Assembly (NCBI GenBank): GCA_025435555.1
Contig: JAIWWG010000098.1
Coordinates: forward strand, 43,984-107,983
Origin: Chytriomyces cf. hyalinus JEL632
Lineage: Eukaryota > Chytridiomycota > Chytridiomycetes > Chytridiales > Chytriomycetaceae
Reading direction: 5' to 3'
DNA length: 64,000 bases
This document shows positions 5,551 through 59,866 of this stretch, one piece after another; positions within the stretch are counted from its first letter, which is position 1; every line of letters begins with the position of its first letter. The translations under genes and the position numbers were made by a program. The notes under the pieces are model-generated. The model searched no databases. It was not told the origin of the DNA and was given only the letters and a program-made list of their open reading frames with translations.

Positions 5551-5614
5551 AAAAAATTTAACCGCCGAAGCGGCATCCACTCAAGTTAAGCGTGTCATCC
5601 TTGCACAGGGAGCC

Positions 5615-5645
<31 letters not shown>

Positions 5646-5685
5646 CATATGTGTCACGCCGCAACCCACAAGGAGTTGGGCGGAC
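5551..5685 (-). ncRNA. U6 spliceosomal snRNA (copy 1)
   Basis: The reverse strand contains the invariant U6 core: a GGAACGATACAGAGAAGATT block with the ACAGAGA box that pairs with the 5' splice site, then TTAGC (AGC triad) and a CTCCCTGTGCAAGGATGACA-type internal stem-loop region. A GC-rich 5' hairpin (start set at GTCC, 5685) precedes the core. A 3' hairpin CCGC-TTCG-GCGG follows, then T6 at 5556–5551. The 5' end is inferred from its spacing of about 30 nt from the TATA box. Total is about 135 nt, somewhat longer than human or yeast U6 because of the extended 5' and 3' hairpins. It is transcribed by polymerase III and acts in the spliceosome, consistent with this intron-rich genome. Confidence 0.95.
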
Positions 5686-17786: not shown

Positions 17787-17826
17787 GTCCGCCCAACTCC
17801 TTGTGGGTTGCGGCGTGACACATATG

Positions 17827-17857
<31 letters not shown>

Positions 17858-17919
17858 GGCTCCCTGTGCAAGGATGACACGCTTAACTTGAGTGGATGCC
17901 GCTTCGGCGGTTAAATTTT
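17787..17919 (+). ncRNA. U6 spliceosomal snRNA (copy 2)
   Basis: Same molecule as copy 1: a 5' hairpin, the ACAGAGA box inside GGAACGATACAGAGAAGATT, the AGC triad, the internal stem-loop region, a UUCG-type tetraloop hairpin at the 3' end (CCGCTTCGGCGG) and T5 at 17916–17920. The snRNA sequence is identical to copy 1, so both are probably expressed, unless the shorter T-run weakens termination. The 5' end is inferred from TATA spacing. Confidence 0.95.
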
Positions 17920-17951
17920 TGAATGTCTCTCTGTCGAGTGGGAGCGAGTTG

Positions 17952-50122: not shown

Positions 50123-53100
50123 TCAACTACCGGACCCTAGATTCCTTCTTTCTTCTTCCTCTCTTCGAACGCGTCGCATTCGTTCTTGATACACGGCTTC
50201 GATCTTTCCCTTCATGTCGTCAAACTCTTCGAGGATCCCCATAAACGCCGGCCTGGTGAGCTTGTACATCATGCACGGCGTTGCGGCTACAACCGTTGCT
50301 GTTCTGGGTATGTTTGCAATGAGGGCCACCTCTGATCGAGAGAGTTTAGCGAAATGGAAATTAAAGTAGTCGTACGCACCTCCAAAGAAGCCTCCGTCAG
50401 ACAACGTTGCAACTGTTCTCCCACCTACAATGATATTCACCGATCCATTTTTTACAAAGTACATCTCGTGGCCCATCTATTGGTAACGGTACAATCAGTA
50501 TGCACGGAAAGTGCAGGGCTAATGCTTGTCACCTCTCCCTGTGCAAAAACGACATCTTCCACAGCAAAGAACGAAACAACAAGCGAACTTGCTATCCGCT
50601 TCAAAAACAAATCATCGCGCCCATCATTTTCCTTCCGACTCAAATACGTGACTTTAGATGCAAGTTCCTGCGCAGCCTCCAACTTGCGCTGCTCTTCTTC
50701 TAACCGAATCTTTTCCATACGTTCCCGGTAAATGACTTCAACGCGCCGCCGCACGTCTTCAAATTCCTCCAAAATACTCGTGAACGCGTCTCGAGTGAGT
50801 TTGTAGAGCATGCTGGAGGTTGCGGCTTGGACTGTTGCTGTTCGTGGGATGTTGGCGATGAGTGCGATTTCACCAAAAAATGCGCCATCTCTGAAACTGG
50901 TGACTTTTTTGCCGTTGGCGATAATGTCCACCACGCCGCTCATCATAAAGTACTGGGTAATTTGGGGGTTAGAGCTTTCACCCTATAACAAATGAGGCAG
51001 AAACAGGACTCACCATTTCGTTGCCCATCTCACCCTGAGTGATGATGACATCCCCGGGCACGTAGTAACAAGCAGTCAGAGCAGTCGCAATTCGGCCGAC
51101 AAAGAGGTCATCCCGTCCGTCATGCTGTGCTCGTCTTAAGAAGGATACCTTTGAAATCAACTCTCGGCAGTTGTGTGTTGCGATTTCCATTCGCAGCGAG
51201 TCATTCATTTCTTCCAACAGTGTGCGCTATAAAAACCGTGCTACTTAAGACTTGGGGGAGAGAAGTAAAGGACAGATGGAGTTGTTGTCCCACCTCTTCA
51301 AAGAACTTGCCGCGATATTTAAGTTCATAGTATCGAAGCATTTTACGACGCGTTGATGGTAGCAAATCTTTCCATCGCATATACTCTTGGACTTCGTCGA
51401 GCTTTTGCCGATACAGCCTTCCTGAGGCGTCCAGGCCCATTGCAAGAGAAGATATGGCACCAACGATGCACGCGTACTGGGCAGGGTGTAAAATAAGGTT
51501 AATGCGCGCACAAGGATTATGTGAGGCACTCACGAAACCAGCCCCGGTGGTTACGAATGCAAGCACTACCCACTGGTCAACAGCGATTTGAGGCCTGAAA
51601 GCAAGCGTTGTTTTGAATAAATATATCAGATTCAATGAAGGATTCTCAACTTGTAAGTCATTGGAAAAGTATTCCCGACGGCCTGAAATGCGGGAAAACG
51701 GTGGAAAAAAACAAAACGTCAGAACGGTATACTTCAATGTCCTTTTAAGCAAAATCTCACGGAAAAGAGGCCCCAGGTGTACTTCTCCAGGATGGTCTGG
51801 TCTTGAATGATCAATAACTCCCCGTTCTGGAACCCGGTGACGCGACCGATAAAGAAGAGCGCGCACGCTTGAATGTGTAAAAAAATGCAGAACCAAAACG
51901 TGAGCGGGAAAATAACAGCCACAGTTTGACCAATGCCCAGCGCGTTCTGCATCATTTTCAACGTTTTGATGTAGACAGGTGAGGTCATAAATATAAGCGG
52001 CAGCTTGTATAGACGCAGTAGACGTATGATGAACAGGTACGGCGCCTCAGGGATGGGCAGTAGTTCGAAGGGAAACGACGTAAGAATGTCGATGGCGAAC
52101 CCGTGTCTGAGGTAGTATCTTCTCCACATGTACAAGGTTGGGTGGGAGAGGGACTGCATCGCAGGATGTGAGGCCTTCAAGGTAAGCAAGTAGACTGCGC
52201 TATCGAGAAGGTAGGATACTGTCAAAAGGGTGGAATATTCAAACGGCAGTTGTATCTCGAACGCGATGCAGAACGGCACTATCCAAAGGTTGCTGATGTA
52301 CAGGAGCGAGATGAAGACTTCAAAAAACACTGAGAACATTGAGAGAGGATTGATGCCAGTGTTCCACAGTGTAAAGGCATCGTTTAGTTGGGATGGAGAG
52401 CCCCCGGCAGCCACATCGCCAGACTGTGGATCTAATTCATCTTTCTCCTTCATATCAAGAGTCGACACCAGCGAGCCCTTCGATGTCCACTTCTGCATGG
52501 TTGCAGCAGTATGTAACACGCCCTTCCAGAACGAAGCCCGAGCCTGGCTCCCAGGGGAACTTGACGACAGTTTACCTGCGTCCAGATACTTCCCAGAAAG
52601 TCCCAACATGTCCGAACGTGTACTGGTGGCGTCTTTGTTCGAGTCGTTCTTAATTTGAATGGACACTACTGAGCAATCTGCTTTGATGCTTTCAGAGGGT
52701 ATAGCGCCCAACTGATTCCCGCTCGAGAAGGACTTTTTTGATGCCTTAAATTCAGCCGTTTGTACGTTGGACAGCGCGCTGGGATTCAAAACTGAGCTTT
52801 TACGCGTTCGCTTGGACTTAAGCGACTCAGCACTCCCTGGCACACTGTTGTCTATGTTGACTCGTGCAATGATGGACGGCTTGCGGCTTCGTGGTGAAGA
52901 AGCTGCGGCAGACTGCCGACCTGCCAGTTGCCGCATCGGAGCAATGTACTCGTTCGAACTCGTACTGAGTAAAGCGTGTTGTTTTCGTGAGTTGAGGGAT
53001 GTTTGGAAGGAAGAATTGATTATATAATCACCAACTCGAGTCCATACTATACTGGGAAGACGTGTTCCATTTTTTCGATCGTTCGGCTCCTTTCCGACCC

Positions 53101-53777
53101 ACAGCCGGGGCAATGAAATTCTGCGAGACTGAAATCTCGTCGTTGTAGTCGAGCTTGTTGTGCCTACTTTCTGGACTGCAAATGTCATCAGGCAAAGTAA
53201 AGTCTTCATCCTTGAAACTAGCATGGGAAAGGGACGCGTTTTTGGCATCTTTCGATTGAGCTGCCGCCTTGTCATTGCCTTTTCTGTGCAGGGTGGGTTT
53301 CTTTGTCAGCTTTTTGCTGGCGACGGAAGCAAGAGACCCGTTACTGTTGAGAGCATCTCCACTGGTAGTGTGAGGAGCTTTTGCCAAGCGCATAAGGCCC
53401 CCCATCCACTTTGATTTTGTGTGCTCGTCCGTGACGGCGTTGGCTATACTGTCTTTGCTCTCGTCCACTGAGTCATCGAAGTCGCCGCCGTTATTCCAAT
53501 CTTCGCGGGGTAAGCTTCTGTTTGCGTTCATTGCGTAGCTTTTGATGAGAATTTCGGGTGTTTGATTCGCAATGTCGGATCCGGCGCTATAGCCTTGATG
53601 AGCACCGAGAGCCAGGACCAGTTTCTGCGCGATGGGTCGTAGCAAGAGCATCTGCTGGTCCAGGAATTCAAATTGCTTTTTGAAGTCGGCAGCGAGCCGC
53701 GGAAGTTCTTCGATGGGGAAGGACATCTCCCTCGTGCGGACTGAAATGTGTTGAAGCGACTTTATTTTTGTCGGCAA
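50123..53777 (-). CDS. Cyclic-nucleotide-gated channel with two tandem CNBDs
   Basis: About 1,050 residues. The N-terminal cytosolic half is Ser/Lys-rich with an early helical segment (FPIEELPRLAADFKKQFEFL). Transmembrane helices S1–S6 lie around 52370–51540, with an S4 carrying few charges (YLFIIRLLRLYKL). The pore is spread over small exons and reads AVGNTFPMTYK then PQIAVDQWVVLAFVTTGAGF, with no GYG or GET filter. S6 and the C-linker follow (IVGAISSLAMGLDASGRLYR; YMRWKDLLPSTRRKMLRYYE). CNBD1 has YYVPGDVIITQGEMGNEM and FFGEIALIANIPRTATVQA; CNBD2 has MGHEMYFVKNGSVNIIVGG and EVALIANIPRTATVVA. Both keep the FGE…R-T-A phosphate cassette, so both should bind cAMP or cGMP. A coiled linker joins them. 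The alternative start at 53726 (MSFPIEE) matches the paralogue better. Confidence 0.88.
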
Positions 53778-54006
53778 TCCCGACGGTTGACAAGACGGAC
53801 AAAAAAAAAACCTCAGGCGTGACTCATTTCAGACAGAAATCCAGCTGCTACGGCGCTACCGTATATTTTAGCTACTGTGTTTGCGTGTATTAAGGCGTAA
53901 ATGTACGTGTGCTTGTTTGGTACCAGTATATTTCTACCAAGAACGAACCCCTATTTTAGTCAATAACCCAAATCCCCCCCAAAAAGAGCACAGCGCATCA
54001 CGAATT

Positions 54007-55135
54007 TTAGAAGCCTCGGGAAAAATCTACAAGTCCAGGAATGTCCCGCCAAAAACATCTTTATACTGTTTGCAATAACTGGCGCAGCGTCAGCATCATC
54101 CGTAAGGGTTGCCATGTGAGGAGTAATGAACACACTGGGATGGCCCCATAAACGCGACGGCAACGGCAGCGGCTCCACTTGGAAAACATCCAAAATTGCG
54201 TGGCTCAGTCCGATGCTGGGTTCGTCCAACGCGCGCAACAGATCTTGTTCCACTACTGTGGCGCCTCGACCAAGGTTGATGAAAGTAGCATCCCTTTCCG
54301 TCATTCGCGAGAAAATTTCGAAATCAAACAGGTTGTGTGTGCTGTTTTTTGCCGGTAAGATGTTAACGACCACGTCAGCTTTCTGAACGGTAGTTTTGAG
54401 CGCGTTAATCCCTGCGACAACTGGCACTTGATGAGTAAATGCACTGAGCCCGTCGTCGCTCATAACAGGAACCGTTACAGTTCTTGCCGAGGTGCCCATC
54501 CCAAGACATTGGTAAATTCATTCTGAACAAAAGGACCCTGGCTACGCCTGAACCTAGCACGCCCATGCCCGCAGCAACAACACGAAATTGCGAAGTAGGT
54601 TTTGGATTCCGTCCGAGTTTGGAGTGCGCATCCATTTCTTTTGGCGCTGCAGTTTTGAGTATTCGTCAAATGTTCTGTTTCTTGATATGACGTGGTACAG
54701 CGCTGTTTATGCCATTCGTGATCCCAGCGACGCGTCAACAAGGCGTACGCAGGGAACATTGCGGGTGAAGAGCGGGTTGTTGAGCAGCTTGTCCTAAATC
54801 ATTTTATCATGAAGCATGATGAATGTATTAAGTATTGGTTGATCAGTGATTGATTGGCTGAGAGTCAAACTGGCACTTACAACGCCCGCCCACGCCACGC
54901 ACACGAGCCGCAGTCTGGGCATGCGGTCCCACTGCTCAAAGTGCGAATCCACCACAGCAATTTCGACCGACTCAAGGCCGCCTCCGTCGCTGGAAGAAGA
55001 GACAAGTTCGAGCGGGTCCAGGCAACTCAGGCTCTCGTCCGAAGCGAATGTGTCGCGAAGATGTTCGAATGCGCTGGCACCGGTGCTGCTCTGTACTTTC
55101 CGAGCTGGTTCCGTGTTGAGGTAGACAATTCGCAT
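54007..55135 (-). pseudogene. Broken D-isomer-specific 2-hydroxyacid dehydrogenase
   Basis: The family reduces 2-oxoacids with NAD(P)H. The first exon is intact (MRIVYLNTEPARKVQSSTGA … RLVCVAWAGVV, donor near 54880), followed by KLLNNPLFTRNVPCVRLVDA. An in-frame TAA then replaces the expected M-A-E-Y, near 54703. The Rossmann segment FRVVAAGMGVLGSGVARVLL is in a second frame, NEFTNVLGW in a third, and RTVTVPVMSDDGLSAF returns to another. The catalytic half NILPAKNSTHNLFDFEIFSR, FINLGRGATVVEQDLL and FITPHMATL (His) is open, but the canonical C-terminus LVDFSRGF is again out of frame, ending at 54007. One stop plus at least four frame changes exceeds what introns explain. It sits between the two channel paralogues. 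Confidence 0.8.
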
Positions 55136-55264
55136 GGTTCCGTGTCAATATACTTCTGATGATTTGCCAGGTGACGTGATTATTTCGTTCAATTTCTTTA
55201 TTTATATTTTTATTTTTGTTATGTTCCATTTACTGTCATTCGATATCTAGCAGGTGGCTACTGC

Positions 55265-58200
55265 TCACATTCCAAGCTTCACTTTCTCCATGCGCTCGCG
55301 GTAGATGATGTCTATCCGCTTCTTGACATCGTCAAACTCAGACACAATGCTTTCGAAAGACTCCCGCGTCAGCCGGTACAGCATGCATGCCGTGCTGGCC
55401 TTGACTGTCGCCGTTCGCGGAATATTCGCAAGGAGCGCAACCTCTAAATACACACAGTTCAAGAACTTAAACTGCGCGCTTCAAGTAAAAGCGTACCTCC
55501 AAAGAACGCGCCATCCTTCAAAGTCGTGACCACATTATTCCCAACAATAATATCGACGGATCCATTCTTGATAAAATACATTTCATGGCCAAGATCACCT
55601 TGCGAAAAGACGCAATCTCCAGGAGTAAAGAACGACGCAACAAGCGATTTGGCAATGCGCAAAAGAAAAAGCTCGTCCTTTCCGTCTCCCTCGCCTCGCT
55701 GCAAAAAGGTTACTTTCGAAACAAGTTCTTGTGCCGCGCTCAGTTTTCTCGCGTCTTCTTCGATTTTGACGCGTTCCATTCGTTCAGCAAATATCACTTG
55801 CACATTTTCCCCGACATCTTTGAACTCGTCCATGATACTTTCAAATGCGGGTCGTGTCAGCCGGTAGAGCATGCAAGGCGTCGCTGCAGCGATCGTCGCA
55901 GTCCGCGGAATGTTTGCAATGACTGCGACTTCTCCAAAGAATGAACCCTCCTTCAAGTACGACACCTTCTTGCCGCCTACCACAACATCCACGGTTCCAG
56001 TCTTGACAAAGTACTTGAAATAAATGCGTTAGTCTTGTCTAGGTTATTAAAATGAAACGCATGAACACACCATATCATTTCCAATCTGACAACGCGAATA
56101 AAAGCACCCTTAAGTCACAAAATTAAAACCCAGGTTTATAAAATACTCACATCCCCTTGGTTAAACACAGTATCCCCAGAGACATAAAATGCAGCGACCA
56201 GCGAAGTTGCGACGCGGTATACAAACAAGTCGTTTCTTCCATCGTCAATTTCTCGTCGAAGAAACGGCACTTTGGCCATCAATTCTCGAGCAGCGGCAAT
56301 TTTGCGGGCTTCCTCTTCTAATCGGATGCGTTCCATTCGCTCCTTATAAATTATATCCACTGTGGGCGTATTCAGTGTGGTGTTAAAAAACAGCAGCGTC
56401 AAAAAAAATCATCGAACCGTTTCTCCGAACATCTTCAAAATCTCTAAGAATGCTTGTAAACGCGTCGCGCGTCAGTTTGTACAGCATGCAGTACCTCTCT
56501 GCTTGAATTGTTGCTGTTCTTGGAATGTTTGCAATCAGCGCAACCTCTGTTTTTTTTTTTTTTGCGAAAAGAGAAAAAGACGGTAAGCGAAACCATCGCT
56601 CGTCAGCCAAAGTTTATCGAAGCGGACCTCCAAAGAAGGATCCCTCGTTCAAGGAAGAAACCCGGTTCTCCCCAACAATGACGCTGACGCTGCCTGACAG
56701 CATAAAGTACTGGCGGAAGGAAAGAATGACGTTAAAACAAAAAGTTCATTAAGCGCCTACGCACACATTACCATATCGTTTCCAATTTCACCTGTCGAGT
56801 AATATAGAGACATCAAATGCAAGGTTAGCATCTTGGTTGAGTACAGCCATTGTCTCCATTCAGACTACCTTGAAATATAATGATATCACCGGGCACAAAG
56901 TAACACGGGACCAAAGACGTGGCAATTCTTCCGATAAACAAGTCGTCGCGTCCATCTTTTTGATGCCGGTTCAAGAAGGACACTTTTGAAATCAGCTCCT
57001 TGCAATTATGAACGGCAATCTCCATTTTAAGCGATTCGTTCATTTCATTCAACAGCGTTGTCTGTTGATGGAATTAAGGTCATGCGCATATCAGGCCCCT
57101 CCCACGTGCAATGCCACGTCACAGACAGGTGTTTCTCACCTCCTCAAAGAACTTTCCCCTGTACTTGAGTTCGTAATACTTCATCACTTTCCGCCTGGTT
57201 GTGGGATCCAGGTCTTTCCAGCGCATGTATTCTTTGAGCTCATCGACTTTTTGTTTGTATAGTCTGGCTGACGCGTCAATGCTCATTGCTACGGATGAAA
57301 TCACACCGACAACGCTTGCGTACTGCGTATATGTTTTGTCAAGTCAACTATTCTTTGAATAAAAACACCGGTTTTTTTACCAGCACGGCGCCAATCACTG
57401 AGAATGAAAGGAACAGCCACCTCTCGATGGAAGTCACTGGCCTTTTTTGAGGGAAAATACAAAAAAACCAAATTAAGGAATCGCCCAATCCATGATCAAG
57501 TCAAGAATTGCTGCTCACCGGTAGGCCAACGGAAATGTGTTTGCCACAGCCTGGGAACAAAAAAGGTGATCAGTATTGGATGTCAAAGAAAATAAACTCC
57601 CAAGTGTTATTCTTTTGGTACCTGAAACATTGCCCAGGTATATTGTTCCCAAATTGTGGCATTCATTATTTTGCCAATTTCATCGTTCGAGCCTTCATAA
57701 ATGCGTCCAAACAAGTACAGAACGCAGGCTTGAAGATGAAAAAAGATCAATGAGATGAACGTCAGCGGCACAATCACAGTCAACGAGGACCCTAAACCCA
57801 TCCCCTCCATCGTTTTTTGAAATGCAAATGATGTGGGTGATACAAAGGCCATTTCCGACAGCTTGTACACTCGCAGCATGCGGATACACCACAGGAAGTG
57901 GCTGTACTCGTATGGAAGGAGTTCAAAGGGGAACGATGTTATCAAATCGATTGCGAATCCGTGGGTAAAGTAGTAGGACTGCCAGTGTCTCAGCGTCGCG
58001 TTTTTGATGGATTGCATGGCGTGGTGGGACCGTCGGATCGTGAAGCACGACAAGAAACAGTCCACGGCAAACACTACCGTCACAATGATGGAAAATGCAT
58101 CTGATAGGTCCAACAGGAATCCCATTTTGAGCGGAGCCATCCATAAAACCGCCATATTGACGGCTGTAACCATCATATTCGTTGAGCATGCCCATGCAAA

Positions 58201-59866
58201 AAAAAATGTTTTTGGAATCCTTACCAAAGTGAATCAATTCCATGCGGCAAAAGAAAGCGGACATCTCGTTGAACCCATCTTGAAAAAAGGACCATTTCTT
58301 CTTTTCAGTTTCCAACTTTTGAACAGAGTTGGAAAGCGGTTCGTTTTGAGGAGTTGCATTTTTGAATCTATCTCCGAGAGACTCGGCGCTGCGGTTTGGC
58401 TGATACGATGTGATTGCCGTGGCTTGCTGGATCACTTTTTGGGTCATGGTTGATATCGTTCGAACGAGACCCATGCTTCTTCTGGAGCCGTGCAACGAGA
58501 ACCTTTTGGGAGGTTCTACTGAAAGTTTTGAAGCAGTATCGACGACTGGGAGGTTCAGTTGTTGGACCAAGTTGCCCTCAGAAACTCCCTTTTTGCTGCG
58601 TGCGGATCTCGCGACAGAACCCAGCGAATCTTGCGCCATGATGGTAATTGTGGGGATAGCGCCTTGCTCAAGGTCGAACGAATGTGTGGAAAGAGACCTT
58701 GCCTTCTTTGGTACAAGATGAATGGGCTCCTGTGCCGGCTTTCTGTCCATCATCTTCTGCCACAGCGGCTTCCGAGTCTCTTCTTCATTCTCAAAGACCA
58801 GGTCTCGACTGGCTGTGAGATCAATGTAGTCGACATCCGCTTTTGCTTGAAGACGCTGGACCACGGACGGCCGCTTCAGCGTTGAATTTGAATGGTTTCC
58901 TTTTGAGGCTAAGAATAGCCGCGCCTTGGAGCCAGCGAGCGTGATTGACTTTCTCAGGTTTTGGCTGCCAGGAGTGTCGTTCGGGGATGTAACGCTCAGC
59001 TCTTGCTGGTAATACGCCTTGGGTGCTTTGGCGCTGGTGTGCCGCGACAGCGACTTTCGCACTGGAAGTAACCCGCCAGCAGCTAGATTGGAAGGTTGCA
59101 GACTGGCACTGTGGGTGTCAGCCGCTGCGTGTGCTTCTGCCTGGGCTTGCGCCAGTTCATACACTTCTTGAATATCAGGAACGCTGCCCAAGACGCTGTT
59201 TCTACCGGAGGTTGCTGAATATGCCGCAATATTTTCGGGCGGTGTTTCACATTCGGAAGAAATTGAGTCTGTGTCGGCATCGTGCGTTTCCCGCTTTTCA
59301 TCCAAATTCGCGGCACACGCGTCTTGATTGAGACTGCTCCTGATGCTGCTGTTTGCAGAAGATATACTTCTCACATTGACTCTAGGCGACGGACTTCGTG
59401 CGGGTATTTTTTGAAATTGAATGGTATCTCCCATCCTGGATCCACCAACTCCCGCGTGCAATGACATTGGTCTATTCGGCTTTTGAACCCCACGTTCCAG
59501 CGTAAAGCTCTTTGTTCGTTCGTTGTTTGCCATCGGGCTTAATGGCGCGGTTGTTGATGGCCCCACAGACTCCAACTGCGAATCTTGCACCACCAATGAG
59601 CTTTTTGAACCAAAGTGTTCGCGGATGGAGCCGGAACCCACAGGCAAATTGTTGACAAACATTTCTGGAGCGTGGAACCAAGTTTCCCACGTGTTCGAAG
59701 GAGCCCCATCTAGCCGCGTTTGTGATGGCTTCAAAAGGCTGAAGAGTGAGTGTGCGGCGGGACGTAGGATGGACAAGTGCGATTCAAGCTGATCAAACTT
59801 GTGTTTGAAGTCTGCGAGTGCAGCCAGGATGTCTGTGACGTCAATAGGTTCCGCACGGCGAGCCAT
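55265..59866 (-). CDS. Cyclic-nucleotide-gated channel with three tandem CNBDs
   Basis: Paralogue of the gene at 50123–53777, about 1,150–1,200 residues. The start MARRAEPIDVTDILAALADF aligns with the other gene's MSFPIEE start. A 540-residue Ser-rich cytosolic region precedes S1–S6 (58150–57290), with S4 HFLWCIRMLRVYKL. The pore reads AVANTFPLAYR then PVTSIERWLFLSFSVIGAVL, again without GYG or GET. The C-linker is YMRWKDLDPTTRRKVMKYYE. CNBD1 is about 57050–56430, CNBD2 about 56345–55790, and CNBD3 about 55785–55270. Each has FFG-E-V-A-(L/V)-(I/L)-ANIPRTAT. Two microexons encode the same CNBD loop: 56772–56791 (20 nt) and 56071–56085 (15 nt). Coiled linkers such as IYKERMERIRLEEEARK join the repeats. 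The protein ends right after CNBD3 (RMEKVKLGM). Confidence 0.88.

Follow-up and report, generated by a model that had tools for sequence, protein, structure and literature searches.

Chytrid genes for predicted ion channels with two and three cyclic-nucleotide-binding domains behind a single HCN-like membrane part

The well-studied channels with a cyclic-nucleotide-binding domain (CNBD) have one ligand site per subunit. HCN1 and HCN4, for example, possess one CNBD per subunit and a CIGYG selectivity filter, whereas the two genes described here, designated A and B, code for two and three CNBDs and for the filter sequences FPMTYK and FPLAYR, respectively. Both genes are on the minus strand of a 64,000-nucleotide stretch of the 37.8-Mb genome of the aquatic chytrid Chytriomyces cf. 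hyalinus JEL632 (C241:43984-107983; hereafter the window, in whose positions features of A and B are given). The CNGK and tandem six-transmembrane (6TM)-CNBD channels, like A and B, have more than one CNBD per polypeptide, but they repeat the whole unit, whereas A and B have one 6TM part with a stack of CNBDs; PKG and PKA regulatory subunits (PKA-R) also have CNBDs in series, but control a kinase and not a pore. BeCNG1 of Blastocladiella is, like A and B, a CNBD channel of a zoosporic fungus, and acts in a cyclic GMP (cGMP) pathway. It is described as a CNG channel linked to the phototaxis of zoospores (PMC4046227, PMC9616733; these and the papers below are cited from their accessible passages). 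It has a GYGD motif (PMC4046227) which the filters of A and B lack, the comparison being with its description and not with its sequence, and the accessible passages of both papers make no mention of tandem CNBDs.

According to PMC7576140, channels seldom deviate strongly from TVGY/FG, and where they do it is as individual channels and not as clades, metazoan CNG being the one clade named as an exception (the animal filter is TIGE); plant CNGC is mentioned besides metazoan CNG. The fungal Kv-like representatives named there are from Basidio-, Asco-, Glomero- and Mucoromycetes, and no chytrid is named in the accessible main text (term counts 0). PMC3410928 reports that neither CNG nor HCN homologues occurred in the fungal genomes surveyed there. 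The sequence-only reading of the window knew of no described three-CNBD channel; our searches listed none either, nor any description of several CNBDs behind one pore, in the open-access literature (titles, starts of abstracts and passages; subscription papers were mostly outside this scope). Proteins of the A and B type are already in NCBI under generic names. The layout, with two or three CNBDs stacked behind one HCN-like GYG-less pore, is on the evidence of the sequences real and conserved; its function is predicted only.

Gene models and tandem CNBDs

Gene A (50123..53726, minus strand) codes for a 1037 amino acid HCN-like channel with two CNBDs in 9 exons (53726-53032, 52964-51761, 51682-51651, 51594-51534, 51476-51294, 51226-51014, 50952-50533, 50476-50380 and 50331-50123). 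Gene B (55265..59866, minus strand) codes for a 1267 amino acid HCN-like channel with three CNBDs in 13 exons (59866-58225, 58163-57622, 57550-57519, 57441-57381, 57322-57140, 57061-56869, 56791-56772, 56709-56628, 56546-56418, 56359-56151, 56085-56071, 56013-55497 and 55443-55265). Both are spliced in frame across GT..AG introns, and the outer coordinates proposed beforehand (start of gene B at 59866, end of gene A at 50123) were correct. The spliced gene B model is identical in every letter to NCBI protein P0001 ('cyclic nucleotide-binding-like protein [Chytriomyces cf. hyalinus JEL632]'), and the C. hyalinus relative P0005 is 98% identical to gene A across the transmembrane segments and C-linker.

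A Pfam search of the spliced proteins identified PF00027 in two stretches of gene A (E 9.9e-38) and three of gene B (E 5.1e-59), in agreement with the sequence-only reading. These are, all on the minus strand, CNBD1 (50671..51151, amino acids 751-890) and CNBD2 (50126..50670, 891-1037) of A, and CNBD1 (56289..56986, 846-985), CNBD2 (55732..56288, 986-1130) and CNBD3 (55268..55731, 1131-1267) of B. The FGE...PRTAT cassette claimed for every repeat is indeed present in five of five. Ligand positions were scored as the equivalents of E582, R591, T592 and R632 in what we take to be HCN2 numbering; none of the five repeats has lost E, R, T or the C-helix R. Among database relatives (see below), all four residues are present in 8/8 usable repeats of the triple-CNBD proteins (n = 3; repeats shorter than 100 amino acids were not counted as usable). 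In the double-CNBD proteins the first repeats have the cassette E and R in 22/22 and the C-helix R in 22/22, and of their usable second repeats (n = 20) 19 have E and R, 12 have T and 15 have the C-helix R, some of the second repeats without aligned ligand residues having cut or gapped ends. As far as their sequences tell, the second site has degenerated in some relatives, but not in A and B.

Pairwise identity among eight repeats (the five of A and B and the three of the Obelidium protein P0003) is 53-77%. Each repeat of B is closer to the P0003 repeat of the same rank than to the other Obelidium repeats (71, 66 and 77% for repeats 1, 2 and 3), and the nearest of the window's own repeats to the second repeat of A is the third of B (64%). 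Intron places are also common to several repeats: M|YF in A1, B1 and B2, and FFG|E in A2, B1 and B3. Chance resemblance was rejected as an origin of the repeats on the basis of this identity and these common intron places. The CNBD1-CNBD2 join of A lies inside exon 50952-50533, and in B the CNBD1-CNBD2 and CNBD2-CNBD3 joins lie inside exons 56359-56151 and 56013-55497, respectively; since all three are inside single exons, separate genes would need mid-exon starts. The solved structures nearest in sequence to the tandem tail are PKGs first, with PKA-R and HCN lower.

The sequence-only reading had called the channels paired. They are two nearby genes on the same strand, but not immediate neighbours: a 2-hydroxyacid dehydrogenase open reading frame (PF02826; about 53963-54517, minus strand) intervenes. 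Upstream of the membrane part, an N-terminal stretch ADFK..F..L.....L.P is common to A (about 53693-53600), B (59824-59740) and Obelidium P0004, and is followed in A and B by a lengthy variable region with no Pfam domains. No significant Pfam domain was found in the long first exon of gene B. Elsewhere in the window, two U6 spliceosomal RNA genes lie on opposite strands at 5551-5665 and 17807-17920, with about 12 kb between them.

Membrane part and selectivity filter

A and B each contain one membrane part only. S1-S6 with the C-linker spans 51152..52354 in A (amino acids 436-750, from alignment to gene B) and 56987..58291 in B (amino acids 526-845), both on the minus strand with introns within, and three successive exon lengths in this part (32, 61 and 183 nt) are common to the two. 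Alignment of the pore places the filter at 51591..51673 in A (NTFPMTYKP) and 57438..57541 in B (NTFPLAYRP), on the minus strand and for the most part within the 32-nt exon (51682-51651 and 57550-57519, respectively). Skipping of this exon would delete the filter and shift the frame, and is therefore a possible alternative-splicing switch.

That the two genes code for ion channels was claimed at the outset. Pfam gave no significant match in the membrane part of either protein (DUF1689 fell below the cut-off, E 0.065), and the identification depends instead on a phmmer match of the S4-to-C-linker part of gene B to HCN4 (E 2e-25), on relatives with Ion_trans (PF00520; e.g. P0004, P0006 and P0012) and on a structural model of P0003. 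In the phmmer alignment CIGYGRQAP of HCN4 is opposite PLAYR-P of gene B. The AlphaFold2 model of P0003, a triple-CNBD relative of 809 amino acids, has a mean predicted local distance difference test score (pLDDT) of 85.7 and a predicted template modelling score (pTM) of 0.53, and displays three beta-rolls with linking helices at 488-523 and 633-668; fold matches (VIA list) cover residues 1-506 of it, so that the fold of CNBD2-3 was hardly compared. The layout of the CNBD-channel superfamily, in which a 6TM part with its pore loop precedes the C-linker and the C-linker precedes the CNBD, was found with B by phmmer and in the P0003 model with its fold searches, and similarity to HCN was seen in the sequence and fold searches alike. 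Taken together, sequence and model give the order S1-S4, S5-pore helix-S6, C-linker and two or three complete CNBDs on long continuous helices.

The CIGYG filter of HCN proper is absent from A and B, and this absence extends to the family. Neither GYG nor GFG occurs in any of the 108 readable filters among 115 family rows (drawn from the best 120 of 209 database matches plus gene A, 121 sequences in all, minus P0041, P0111, P0115, P0120, P0097 and P0106); the motif N.F[PQ] is found in 95 of the 115, and the filter of Spizellomyces P0055 is NTFPITGFRP. Another CNBD channel of the same genome (L025) reads TTTGYGD, and the loss of GYG in the family is therefore not an assembly effect.

Spread, origin and conservation of the extra CNBDs

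In the homologue search the 7992 candidates sharing most words with the query were scored (candidate length 0.55-1.75x that of the query); protein names and species are as the submitters gave them. The 121 sequences contain one CNBD in 89 cases, two in 24, three in 4, four in 1, six in 2 and seven in 1. Judged by domain coordinates, P0040 (counted as three) and P0032 and P0101 (counted as two) are apparent split single domains and were taken out, so that the matches listed include 3 triple-CNBD channels (P0001, P0002 with a cut third CNBD, and P0003) and 22 double-CNBD channels including gene A (the second CNBD is cut in P0022 and P0044). The triple-CNBD channels among them belong to two genera, Chytriomyces and Obelidium; by name, double- or triple-CNBD channels occur in Chytriomyces, Obelidium, Physocladia, Rhizoclosmatium, Podochytrium, Siphonaria and Entophlyctis, and all four species looked up are Chytriomycetaceae. 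The sequence-only reading had pointed to CNBD copy number in chytrid genomes, and within these best matches double- and triple-CNBD channels do recur in chytrid relatives. The layout is evidently inherited (Chytriomyces, Obelidium) and not a local oddity.

Two further searches were made. Spizellomyces P0055 as a query (8 rows) added one protein, P0121, without a membrane part by the family model. The tandem tail (best 120 of 268) retrieved kinases, LRR/F-box proteins, peptidases, TPR/cyclase proteins and one antiporter, according to precomputed domains. Among the 61 new proteins (P0121-P0181) a membrane part was found by the family model, which would miss unrelated channels, only in P0131, of the four-repeat type. 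Such four-repeat proteins differ from A and B: P0120 has 4 Ion_trans and 4 CNBD stretches, and P0131 has 3 and 4. Proteins with six CNBDs were also seen in relatives (P0111, P0115, P0122 and P0126).

A tree was computed from 133 CNBDs of at least 100 amino acids from family proteins (9 odd or split proteins were left out). It separates 22 distal CNBDs (20 second-of-two, that of gene A included, and 2 third-of-three) from the 111 others with branch support 99/97; CNBD3 of gene B and its 77% identical counterpart, the third CNBD of Obelidium P0003, cluster together (100/96), and the three middle CNBDs form one group (100/98) on the proximal side. The simplest reading is that the distal CNBD had a single origin in the lineage and that the middle CNBD was a separate gain; the middle CNBD of B would have arisen on the proximal side before the split of Chytriomyces and Obelidium.

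Contig C112 harbours a colinear copy of the A-B pair (C112:309000-325000, L009 and L010; 91% identity in the largest block), which represents a segmental duplication or else a second haplotype that has diverged. Open frames and splice sites are kept in both genes of this copy. The ratio of non-synonymous to synonymous substitution rates (dN/dS) between gene A and its copy is 0.20 in the N-terminus, 0.02 in the membrane part, 0.05 in CNBD1 and 0.06 in CNBD2; for gene B it is 0.31, 0.09 and, in CNBD1-3, 0.00 (0 replacements in the 140 codons of CNBD1), 0.01 and 0.03. As these ratios indicate, the extra CNBDs are under purifying selection and constrained as tightly as the first.

The family membrane part is present at about 45 loci of this genome (43 fetched plus A and B), a hand count that is a lower bound for exons found, with one locus at a contig end and near-duplicate copies included; L025-L027, apparently other CNBD channels of GYG type (GYG was read in L025 only), were left out. 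Loci with two or three CNBDs among those examined are A, B, their C112 copies and L018 on C100. CNBD clusters without a match to the family membrane part were also observed, with nine CNBD matches at L023 (C218:49500-58500), six at L024 (C123:286500-294500) and four at L022 (C1:515500-521000). CNBD matches of identical score recur at matching intervals on four or five of the contigs C21, C33, C42, C53 and C62, as though they had been copied recently.

Proposed mechanism and alternatives

We favour, with a probability of roughly 0.6, the reading that A and B are subunits of a cyclic-nucleotide-regulated cation channel that is not K+-selective, in which CNBD1 acts on the C-linker, with the distal CNBDs tuning the response. 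Four pore-forming subunits would assemble into the channel; cyclic AMP or, more likely, cGMP would bind CNBD1, move the C-linker and open the pore or ease its opening, as in HCN and CNG channels. Because only CNBD1 follows the C-linker, the distal CNBDs could reach the pore only via CNBD1 or between subunits. CNBD2 and CNBD3, which lack a C-linker of their own, would act through the helix that continues the C-helix of each CNBD into its successor, and would alter the CNBD1 response in affinity, cooperativity or duration; tandem CNBDs in PKA-R and PKG tune the response in such a manner. The eight or twelve sites per channel of the sequence-only reading are an upper bound, and the steep or multi-step gating that it suggested is conjectural.

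Neighbouring genes hint at cGMP as the ligand. Rhodopsin and guanylyl cyclase exons occur together at four loci (on C182, C215, C186 and C207), where one fused rhodopsin-cyclase gene per locus is assumed from the literature. On C207 (L012, 151000-158500) and C186 (L014, 29500-36500) the cyclase stop codon lies tail to tail with that of a single-CNBD family channel, at 106 and 140 bp, respectively, and the two loci appear to be copies of a single region. Rhodopsin cyclases are believed to guide zoospores (PMC9616733, PMC7655827), and the suggestion of the sequence-only reading that the channels serve zoospore signalling is somewhat better supported by these neighbours, while still conjectural.

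Several points weigh against this proposal. Tetramer, cation conduction, cGMP as ligand and distal tuning are all predictions, and a GYG-less pore may conduct something else or nothing. S4 of A and of B has three R/K each in the segment counted, unlike the long R/K-rich S4 of HCN proper (PMC7576140), so that voltage gating is doubtful; S4-driven gating was dropped for this scarcity of charges. The cyclase neighbours adjoin single-CNBD members and not A or B, and in the whole-genome family scan no family match lies alongside the rhodopsin-cyclase exons at C182:96-97 kb and C215:55-57 kb; being one of perhaps two independent cases, noticed after the fact, the cyclase link is suggestive only. Second repeats of double-CNBD proteins lack T in 8/20, the C-helix R in 5/20 and the cassette R in 1/20, so a working distal site is not kept by every member. 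The mutual arrangement of the three CNBDs in the P0003 model is uncertain given its pTM, and the tree was built on few alignment columns, contains a number of long distal branches and had a bootstrap that was not fully settled.

The pore and the tail can each be explained in another way. A and B could be modulatory subunits that join GYG-bearing CNG-type subunits and add ligand sites while being non-conducting alone, as the family-wide lack of GYG and the presence of L025 in the same genome would allow. We consider this unlikely, since about 45 family loci stand against three of GYG type (L025-L027) among the loci examined, conservation of the membrane part is strong (dN/dS 0.02 and 0.09), and animal CNG channels, with TIGE in place of GYG, conduct nevertheless. 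A slightly poorer candidate is a distal tail that is structural or serves docking (coiled assembly, partner binding) and does not sense ligand: several paralogues have eroded second CNBDs on long branches, which indicates that the fold can persist without the full cassette. However, none of the four ligand residues (E, R, T and the C-helix R) has been lost from A, B or the 8 usable repeats of triple-CNBD proteins, and purifying selection acts on the distal CNBDs of both A and B. The gene models were read from genomic DNA, and CNBD clusters without the family membrane part exist in this genome and in relatives, so that a channel gene and separate CNBD genes might have been wrongly joined by annotation. 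This we rejected as most improbable: the three CNBD-CNBD joins lie within exons, the same domain order is deposited for C. hyalinus and Obelidium, and the C112 copy keeps frames and splice sites.

Beyond the proposed cation channel itself, a wider picture can be offered tentatively, and we hold it to be clearly less probable: a chytrid-specific clade of CNBD channels with an HCN-derived, GYG-less filter, expanded to some 45 loci and coupled to rhodopsin-guanylyl cyclases for light steering of zoospores, in which added PKG-like CNBDs would yield graded receptors with one, two or three CNBDs per subunit (4, 8 or 12 sites), the number of sites setting the sharpness or memory of the cGMP response. 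With its general loss of GYG, the family joins the few clades of CNBD channels whose filter is non-canonical, and the cyclase neighbours make the channel genes candidates for zoospore light sensing. The family also provides a natural series of one, two and three sites on related pores, in which the relation between site number and cooperativity can be asked.

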